From: Natronococcus sp. AD-5
Lineage (GTDB): Archaea; Halobacteriota; Halobacteria; Halobacteriales; Natrialbaceae
Direction of reading: 5' to 3'
DNA: 64,000 bases
Assembly (NCBI RefSeq): GCF_030734285.1
Contig: NZ_CP132294.1
Span: 1,116,001 to 1,180,000, forward strand
Numbering within the stretch: position 1 is the first letter of the stretch; each line of letters opens with the position of its first letter. A program made the translations under genes and the position numbers. Below the pieces are notes generated by a model that had not been told where the DNA came from, did not search any database, and worked only from the letters and a program-made list of their open reading frames with translations. Of this stretch, positions 50,272 through 52,394 are shown in pieces.

Positions 50272-50354
50272 GCGAGGGTAGCCAAGCGGCCAACGGCGGC
50301 GGACTCAAGATCCGCTCTCGTAGGAGTTCGTGGGTTCGATTCCCTCCCCTCGCA
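50272..50354 (+). tRNA. tRNA-Leu (anticodon CAA)
   Basis: The 7-bp acceptor stem is GCGAGGG (50272-50278) with CCCTCGC (50347-50353) and discriminator A. D-stem GCC/GGC, anticodon stem GCGGA/TCCGC with loop CTCAAGA (anticodon CAA, 50306-50308), a long variable arm of 14 nt as in leucine tRNAs, and a TTCGATT T-loop. The T-stem has one U-U mismatch (50331/50345). No intron is visible. It reads leucine UUG codons. A decayed copy is at 51369. Confidence 0.92.
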
Positions 50355-50389
50355 CTGGCAACCAGTGCGGCAAGAGAGCACCTCTTGCC
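50352..50389 (+). terminator. Two tandem hairpins after tRNA-Leu
   Basis: GCACTGG/CCAGTGC (7 bp, CAA loop, 50352-50368) starts inside the tRNA 3' end, and GGCAAGAG/CTCTTGCC (8 bp, 5-nt loop, 50369-50389) follows directly. No T-run follows, so processing signal or attachment-site structure is as likely as terminator. The second hairpin has a counterpart at 51447-51469 in the repeat copy. Confidence 0.5.
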
Positions 50390-50608
50390 CTCGCAAAGCA
50401 TTCTGGCGATAGATGACACCCTCCGAGGAGACGTATCCACAATGGCGGTAATATCCGCCTCGGTTCGACGTGACTGGCGGGAAAATTACGGAACGTGAAC
50501 GAGCCGCCAGACGCGGAAAACCGGCGCCGCTGCGGCGATTTGCTGCGATAACGACGATCGCGCTACGTCCAGGGAGCTTACTTATCCGATCTGTTCGTAG
50601 GTGCGAGC

Positions 50609-51166
50609 ATGAGCGAGGACGCGGTCCGGACGGCGTTCCCCGAACTCGAGGCTATCGAGGACGACGACCTGCGAGCCGGTGTAATCGACGCGTGGGTGAC
50701 GGCGATCGCGGAGAACGACATCGACGACCTCACCGCGGTTCCGTGGCTGCCGCCGACGCAGCGCGAGTTGACGCTGAACGACGAGTATCTGGTCACCCAC
50801 GTTCGGGACGTGACCGCCTGCGCCGTCGCGCTCGCGGAGACGCTACTGGAGCGGCGAGAGGGGGCCCTCTCGCTGGATATGGATACCGTCGTTGCGGGGG
50901 CTCTCGTCCACGACGTGAGCAAGCTCGCCGAGTTCGACGAGATGGACGAGACGGCCGTCTACAGCCTGCTCGGGCATCCCTACTACGGCGTTCACGTCGT
51001 TGCGCGGGCGGGCTTGCCGGTCGAACTCGCACACGTCGTGCTCTCGCACACGAGTCGAACGACGGTCGAACCGGCGATAATAGAAGCGGAACTCGTTAAA
51101 CGAGCCGACGAGATCGCGGCGGCTGCCATCCGGTGGCGGGCGACCGACGACCTCCGAACCGTGTGA
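50609..51166 (+). CDS. HD-domain phosphohydrolase (185 aa)
   Basis: Starts MSEDAVRTAFPELEAIEDDD at 50609. The HD motif is AGALVHDVSKLAEFDEMDE, with preceding His in TLNDEYLVTHVRDVTACAVA and a later His in LLGHPYYGVHVVARAGLPVE and HVVLSHTSRTTVEPA. These are the metal ligands of the HD superfamily, acting on nucleotides or other phosphorylated compounds. It lies between the real tRNA-Leu and its decayed copy. The substrate is unknown. Confidence 0.82.
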   Translation: MSEDAVRTAFPELEAIEDDDLRAGVIDAWVTAIAENDIDDLTAVPWLPPTQRELTLNDEYLVTHVRDVTACAVALAETLLERREGALSLDMDTVVAGALVHDVSKLAEFDEMDETAVYSLLGHPYYGVHVVARAGLPVELAHVVLSHTSRTTVEPAIIEAELVKRADEIAAAAIRWRATDDLRTV

Positions 51167-51368
51167 TCGAACCCGAGCGGACGGTCGAGACCGCACTCGG
51201 AGCGAGAGACCGATTTCGCTATCCGGACCGATCAGGGCCGGAAACAGAAATGCGCGGGGGACCGAATGACGCCGAGGTTCTGCACGGAGCCGTTCGAAAG
51301 ACGCTCCGCGCCTTTCGTGACTGTGCGGAGCGCTACTCCCGCGAGGTCAGCGAAACCGACGGTTGATG

Positions 51369-51434
51369 ACGAGAGTGTTCCGCTCTCTCGAACCACGCAG
51401 GTTCCTGGAGGGAGTTCGATTCCCTCCTCTCGCC
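51369..51434 (+). pseudogene. Decayed tRNA-Leu copy and following hairpin
   Basis: The 20 bases at 51414-51433 match the tRNA-Leu 3' end (50334-50353) at 19 of 20 positions. The block TCCGCTCTC (51379-51387) equals the tRNA's 3' anticodon stem and variable arm start (50311-50319). ACGAGAG (51369-51375) can pair with the 3' end at six of seven positions as an acceptor 5' strand, but the D-arm and anticodon loop are gone. A hairpin at 51447-51469 parallels the one after the real tRNA. 51167-51593 otherwise holds no gene I can support. Confidence 0.65.
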
Positions 51435-51593
51435 CTCTCAATAGTGGGGCAAGACGGACTGTCTCGCCCTCGAAAACTCCTCGCGAAACGGAAGTCCTCG
51501 AGCAACGGCGCCGGGCTCGACCGGGACTCCTACTCGAAAGAGGGCCGATACGAAACGCGATACCTTTTCACGCCGGGCCCCTCAGACCGGACG

Positions 51594-52394
51594 ATGAGTG
51601 ACTCCGACGAGGCTCGTCGAGCCGAGGTCGCCGCCCGTGCGGCCAGGGCGGGCGCAGAGATCGCCGGCGACGCGTTCCGCACGACGCTCGAGGTCGAGCA
51701 GAAAGATAATAAGACCGACGTCGTGACGCAGGTCGATCGCGACGCCCAGGTGGCCGTGATCGACGTCGTGCGCGAGGCGTTTCCCGACGATCCGGTCGTC
51801 GGCGAAGAGGAGGATGAACTGAAGGAGGTTCCGGAATCGGGCCCGGCGTGGATCGTCGACCCGATCGACGGGACGAACAACTTCGTCAGGGGGATCCGCT
51901 CGTTCGGCACCGCCGTCGCGGCGGTCGTCGACGGCGAACCCGTCGGCGCGGCGACGATCTGTCCGGCCCTCTCGGACAGCTACCTGAGCGGTCCGGACGG
52001 CGCCGTCCGGAACGACGAACCGCTCTCGGTCAGCGACTGCGCCGATCCGGAGGCGGCGACCGTCTCGCCGACGTTCTGGTGGGACTTCGATCAGCGCGAC
52101 CAGTACGCCGCCGCGAACCGCGAACTCGTCAGCCGATTCGGCGACATGCGCCGGTTCGGCTGCGCCCAGCTCGGCCTCGCGATGGTCGCCTCGGGGGCGC
52201 TCGAGGGGATCACGACGAACCTGCGGGCGAACCCGTGGGACACAGTCGCCGGCGTCCACCTCATCCGGCAGGCCGGCGGTCGAGTGACGGACCTCGAGGG
52301 TGATCGCTGGCGCCACGACAGCGACGGGCTGGTCGCCTCGAACGGCGAGATCCACGACGAGCTGCTGGAAGCGGCCCGCGGGATCGACGCGTAG
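51594..52394 (+). CDS. Inositol monophosphatase/fructose-1,6-bisphosphatase family enzyme (266 aa)
   Basis: Starts [20 protein letters not shown] at 51594. The lithium-sensitive metal-binding motifs are [13 protein letters not shown] (Glu), [19 protein letters not shown] (DPxDGTxN) and [18 protein letters not shown] (WDxxAG). [19 protein letters not shown] is the first active-site helix. Archaeal members hydrolyse inositol phosphates, fructose bisphosphate or 3'-phosphoadenosine phosphate. The gene is upstream of the DUF63 gene by 62 bp. Confidence 0.92.

Follow-up and report, generated by a model that had tools for sequence, protein, structure and literature searches.

Why should the 3' end of a tRNA-Leu gene occur twice, once on each side of an HD-domain gene? 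The window, the whole 64-kb stretch of a haloarchaeal genome analysed here (G000 contig C1:1116001-1180000), contains this arrangement, and a sequence-only reading had taken it for either a passive element of about 1.1 kb integrated at the tRNA or a tRNA gene duplicated in tandem, one copy of which later decayed. The 3' ends of tRNA genes are the classic docking sites of archaeal mobile DNA. The features of the locus are:

50272..50355, + strand: intact tRNA-Leu, anticodon CAA (ARAGORN; Rfam RF00005, 51.5 bits)
50354..50398, + strand: first trailer, two hairpins and then another CCCTCGCA (100% identical in G004)
50401..50466, no strand assigned: stretch similar to the internal left end of the G001 integrase element (2.6 kb)
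50609..51166, + strand: HD-domain gene
51237..51283, + strand: putative 5' half of a tRNA-tail unit, with the end of its first hairpin, an inverted T-arm copy and the first half of its core hairpin
51290..51396, + strand: dispersed palindromic repeat within the unit core
51396..51413, + strand: putative 3' half of the core hairpin (CGCAGGTTCCTGGAGGGA)
51414..51433, + strand: tRNA-Leu 3' end repeated directly from T-loop to acceptor end, 19/20 (20-mer search)
51434..51480, + strand: second trailer, decayed, with the original flank toward suhB beyond it (fold test, alignment)
51597..52394, + strand: suhB, inositol-monophosphatase-family gene (Pfam PF00459), the conserved right neighbour in the genus by synteny

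The second tRNA 3' end

The 20-mer GTTCGATTCCCTCCCCTCGC from the tRNA-Leu 3' end matches exactly at 50334 and with one mismatch at 51414, and it has no third site in the 64 kb at up to three mismatches. Only 0.02 matches are expected in the window by chance, and two matches occurred in none of the shuffles, which confirms the 19/20 repeat at 51414-51433 that had been noticed from the sequence alone. No tRNA was called in the second copy (51360-51440) by ARAGORN or by the covariance-model search with Rfam that had been proposed as a check. All Rfam matches in the window apart from tRNA were sub-threshold, and those to skipping-rope and Plastid-ycf2, which fell below the gathering score, were taken as chance.

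The sequence-only reading had also described a hairpin after each tRNA end, kept by changed bases that still pair. The first trailer does fold well (z=-3.95). In the second the stem persists and some pairs are swapped, but there is also one A-C mismatch, and it folds no better than its shuffles (z=-0.93). TCCGCTCTC does recur at 51379-51387, but as part of a palindromic repeat that is dispersed at many unrelated haloarchaeal sites, and so it does not derive from the tRNA. Distant from the window in the same genome is a 50-bp internal piece of tRNA-Leu (G000:C1:3800211-3800260; L095 1501-1550), covering tRNA positions 26-75 at 98% identity, with no tRNA called around it.

The tRNA-Leu locus in related genomes

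The gene order AspA-like, DUF309, zinc-ribbon ORF, tRNA-Leu, suhB, DUF63 is conserved in the genus among genomes with enough flanking sequence. The gap from the tRNA end to the start of suhB is shortest in G007 and G008 (about 133 bp) and longest in G001 and G002 (2.8-2.9 kb). It measures 278 bp in G004, 605 bp in G005, 937 bp in G003, 1.07 kb in G006 and 1.24 kb in the window. Given a conserved flanking order around a gap of such variable length, this is an insertion-prone site. G007 and G008 have the tRNA, a trailer and suhB, with a single tRNA end. In G004 the tRNA is followed by a short insert, a second tRNA end, a trailer and suhB, and the HD gene is absent there. G001 carries a 2.6-kb insert with a phage-integrase-family gene (PF00589, E=4.7e-16) and a tRNA end on either side; this element (L061 6538-9115) contains a 230-aa integrase-family ORF and a 328-aa ORF. 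By our reading, about 30 of the 125 genomes of the family have at least two nearby copies of the tRNA-Leu end, and G029 and G030 have partial tandem tRNA copies at this locus.

The idea of integration at the tRNA end thus stands in part. The interval behind tRNA-Leu(CAA) does take insertions, but one HD mini-element bounded by both ends is not supported, since the closest relatives, G001 and G004, lack the HD gene at this site and have the second tRNA end. The single end that had been predicted for strains without the HD gene is seen in the more distant G007 and G008.

A probable broken tRNA-tail unit

Genomes that lack the HD gene at this site, G004 and G006 among them, carry at the same place behind tRNA-Leu an intact short insert of a kind that we call a tRNA-tail unit. 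The window appears to hold this unit, heavily decayed, in two pieces. The stretch at 51237-51283 aligns to the G004 unit with a score of 68, compared to a maximum of 45 in 2000 shuffles, none of which was as good, while 51396-51413 aligns to the same unit but is weak alone (6 of 2000 shuffles as good). Together with the direct copy of the tRNA end, the parts of a unit are therefore found at 51237-51283 and 51396-51433, interrupted by the repeat. Since both halves match the G004 insert and the repeat lies between them, the supposed decayed tRNA copy would be a unit broken in its core, and the second tRNA end would be the right edge of this unit of ~112 bp. No tRNA end was recognisable just before the unit, about 51200.

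The interrupting repeat has the form CGTTCGAAAGACGC...GATGACGAGAG..CTCTCTCGAACCACG. Copies of its right end occur in many haloarchaeal genomes, and the 33-bp right end has one further copy in the window's own genome. The repeat may be PATE-like. Across its dispersed copies (L047, L049, L050, L052, L055-L060) extra hairpins are variable and the right end, CGAGAG..CTCTCTCGAACCACG, is near-constant.

Comparison with the relatives indicates that the core of the unit was split by the dispersed repeat, and that the gap between tRNA and unit separately gained both a mobile HD gene and a stretch resembling the G001 element at its left end; the order of these events is what we infer. A tRNA-tail unit broken by a repeat, with the HD gene arriving on its own, is in our judgement a likely explanation of the locus as a whole, and the best one.

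The HD gene and its left flank

The presence of an HD-domain gene between the tRNA ends is borne out by a Pfam match (PF01966, E=1e-11). Close homologues with 79-84% nucleotide identity occur at unrelated loci in G003, G005, G023 and G027, where homology stops at the ORF, so that the ORF alone is shared; no tRNA-Leu fragment was found near any of the four. The gene was seen as a single ORF with unshared flanks at four unrelated loci (L067, L068, L069, L070), L069 being on a 105-kb contig. The sole match of the HD protein to a defence family is a weak one to Cas3e-HD (E=1.1e-5). The statement that no integrase lies inside holds for the ORFs listed between 50356 and 51413, of which the HD ORF was scanned with Pfam.

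The sequence-only reading had named two findings that would speak against it, namely that all relatives carry both the HD gene and the second copy, or that the HD gene sits elsewhere with no tRNA fragment. Both are found in part: the second copy is present in the nearest relatives, which have no HD gene there, and the HD homologues lie elsewhere without tRNA-Leu.

It is possible, if somewhat doubtful, that the interval between the tRNA and the older unit is the wreck of an integrative element like that of G001, with its left end remaining at 50354-50466, its integrase lost and the HD gene kept or gained. The stretch at 50401-50466 resembles the left inside flank of the G001 element in an alignment that none of 2000 mononucleotide shuffles equalled, and the G001 element does have an integrase-family gene. 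The interval and the G001 element lie at the same site, each with the tRNA end and trailer on both sides. On the other hand, only the first ~40 bp of the resemblance are strong by themselves, and these directly follow the trailer and could be old host flank. The right end is not recognised in the window, and the G001 element is larger (2.6 kb), carries genes, and has neither the unit core hairpin nor an HD gene. This alternative can be compatible with the broken-unit explanation.

The passive mini-element of ~1.1 kb, bounded by the two tRNA ends and with the HD gene inside, is largely refuted, and we consider it very improbable. The tRNA 3' end is directly repeated on both sides, the HD gene lies between two sets of tRNA end and trailer, and G001 demonstrates that larger elements insert at tRNA-Leu; but the second end belongs to a unit found in relatives without the HD gene, and the gene's homologues occur without tRNA-Leu fragments. 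Least probable is a plain tandem duplication with decay of the second tRNA gene, for although tRNA end and trailer are both repeated and partial tandem copies exist in G029 and G030, the sequence before 51414 matches a unit with its core hairpin and not a tRNA body, and no tRNA is called there.

Anatomy of the tRNA-tail units

Judged from sequence comparison, a tRNA-tail unit is a short non-coding insert of roughly 100-160 bp placed exactly at a tRNA 3' end, with the tRNA left intact. An intact unit begins T-rich and continues with a hairpin. Next come part of the T-arm and acceptor end of the host tRNA, copied in inverted orientation, and a core hairpin that units at different tRNAs have in common. 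The last part repeats the tRNA directly from T-loop to 3' end, and the old flank follows. Tandem stacking of units is seen. The inverted arm is specific to the unit's own tRNA, with a mean score of 9.92 compared to 7.48 (sd 0.19) after permutation (0 of 300 permutations), and for 52 of 65 units the nearest core is one behind another tRNA. The arms are therefore local and the cores shared.

Where the direct copy of a unit has drifted, the tRNA is the better fit to the inverted arm in 50 cases and the copy in 9. We looked in these units for compensatory pairing of the inverted arm with the direct copy and did not find it. The 50 to 9 ratio points to decay after one copying event, with no sign of a maintained hairpin.

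The folds of the units are strong (z=-6.62 and -5.29), and the units could instead be immobile, selected as structured RNA tails of tRNA transcripts that serve in processing, insulation or as decoys, rarely gained and often lost. That the matches listed follow tRNAs of many types and come from several haloarchaeal families is consistent with such a role, as is the retention of some units at the same tRNA across genera (Leu-CAA, Ser-GGA). We regard this as unlikely, however, because the arms fit the tRNA as expected for unconstrained decay and not for a maintained hairpin, many tRNAs of one genome have no unit, and cores are common to different tRNAs.

Distribution

The core GGTTCTGCGCnnnGCGCAGGTTC, with at most one mismatch, has 33 occurrences in 21 of 61 related genomes, compared to none for the reversed control pattern. 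Most of these matches lie 60-330 bp behind a same-strand tRNA gene for His, Leu, Arg, Ser, Pro, Thr, Met, Val or Lys, and the units of the related genomes mostly end in their own tRNA's 3' end. Among the matches listed for named genomes, nearly all haloarchaeal ones lie 54-314 bp behind a same-strand tRNA, and the core occurs behind tRNAs in at least Natrinema, Haloferax, Halorubrum, Haladaptatus, Halorientalis and others. No copy of a tRNA end was found at the bacterial core matches among those listed. A Desulfobacterales MAG with many matches to the core pattern, none with an upstream tRNA among the matches listed, was taken as unrelated. Other core types exist besides GGTTCTGCGCnnnGCGCAGGTTC, and some units have no called tRNA nearby (L298, L322, L136, L160); these are orphans, lie at contig edges or follow missed tRNAs.

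A census independent of the core sought each tRNA's own ~20-nt end within 400 bp, downstream and upstream, in extracted genome stretches. Ends of other isotypes found downstream served as a control:

G000 (window genome), n=50: own end 17 downstream, 1 upstream; other isotypes 2
G028, n=33: own end 22 downstream, 1 upstream; other isotypes 2
G008, n=23: own end 7 downstream, 1 upstream; other isotypes 1
G056 (another family), n=23: own end 5 downstream, 0 upstream; other isotypes 0
Non-haloarchaeal Halobacteriota, n=30: own end 0 downstream, 0 upstream; other isotypes 0

The tRNAs counted for G008, G028 and G056 are the better-scoring ones. Three regions of G028 were chosen by a core or tRNA-Leu match, one of which (Ser-TGA) is among the 22, so that the unbiased figure is slightly lower. 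The window's tRNA-Leu is not within the 17 of G000, its copy being more than 400 bp away.

Neither viral contigs nor phage records contained the core, and one plasmid record matched it; there is therefore no sign of a viral carrier. A search of seven unit loci gave no Rfam family for the units, only sub-threshold matches. We found no published description of such units in the open-licence literature, and an earlier description elsewhere is possible. The units are a widespread haloarchaeal family that is apparently undescribed.

Filled and empty sites

For four tRNAs, the flank directly behind the tRNA in a genome lacking the unit is the flank behind the copied end in a genome bearing it. These filled and empty pairs, read by eye, are Leu-CAA in G006 and G002, Ile-GAT in G028 and G000, Ala-CGC in G008 and G000, and Arg-TCT in G137 and G028. 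Many other genome pairs align elsewhere, and in the cases inspected the compared genome has an older, sub-threshold unit. Filled and empty sites could also result from precise loss by recombination between the ~20-bp repeats, and because the repeats permit such deletion, gain and loss are inseparable in any one case.

We see about an even chance that units enter as small cassettes through two features common to all tRNAs, the 3' end and the T-loop motif GTTCRA, and then decay. Entry might occur by site-specific recombination at the tRNA 3' end, as for a cassette, or by strand invasion at the T-loop motif that copies the target. We know of no enzyme for these units. More tentative, and rather doubtful, is the idea of a class-wide haloarchaeal insertion system in which a small shared core settles behind almost any tRNA and the last ~20 bp of that tRNA are copied at each insertion into both arms, one inverted and one direct. 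If true, it would be a mode of insertion undescribed for MITEs or integrases.

Comparison with known systems

Archaeal elements that integrate at tRNA 3' ends use a tyrosine recombinase and are bounded by attL and attR (reviewed in PMC8371274). The units share with them the tRNA 3' end as target, a direct repeat, an intact tRNA and several inserts per site. They differ in their size, the absence of an integrase, the additional inverted copy of the target, and one core family serving very many tRNA types. Ordinary integration at tRNA ends leaves the inverted arm unexplained. The window itself has the direct repeat expected of attL and attR (50334 and 51414), but the right copy belongs to the older unit, no integrase accompanies it, and the closest relatives without the HD gene (G001, G004) do not have an empty site.

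The MITEs, SMRs and PATEs described in Haloquadratum are mobile repeats without a transposase (PMC3119063). Like them, the units are short, non-coding, palindrome-rich and multi-copy, and insertion of one repeat into another is seen in the window. No link to tRNA genes is reported for the repeats described there (PMC3119063), whereas the units lie nearly always just behind one, with end arms that vary with the host tRNA instead of fixed, target-independent ends.

With between a fifth and two thirds of the tRNA genes in the sampled haloarchaeal genomes followed by such tiny, enzyme-free inserts, tRNA fragments need not mark past genomic islands. This bears on the annotation of attachment sites and on the ends of tRNA transcription, and raises the testable question by what route a common core comes to have arms that copy whichever tRNA it joins.

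Two details recur in the units. The copied T-loop often has one extra base, GTTCACAATCC for GTTCAAATCC, at different tRNAs (L138, L157, L162, L164, L251, L305, L306, L366, L380), possibly marking a junction inside the T-loop. The first hairpin of many units (L215-L245, L164-L208) has a common loop motif like GCGAACAAnTCGTGAGC, which by our reading of the sequence may resemble a kink-turn.
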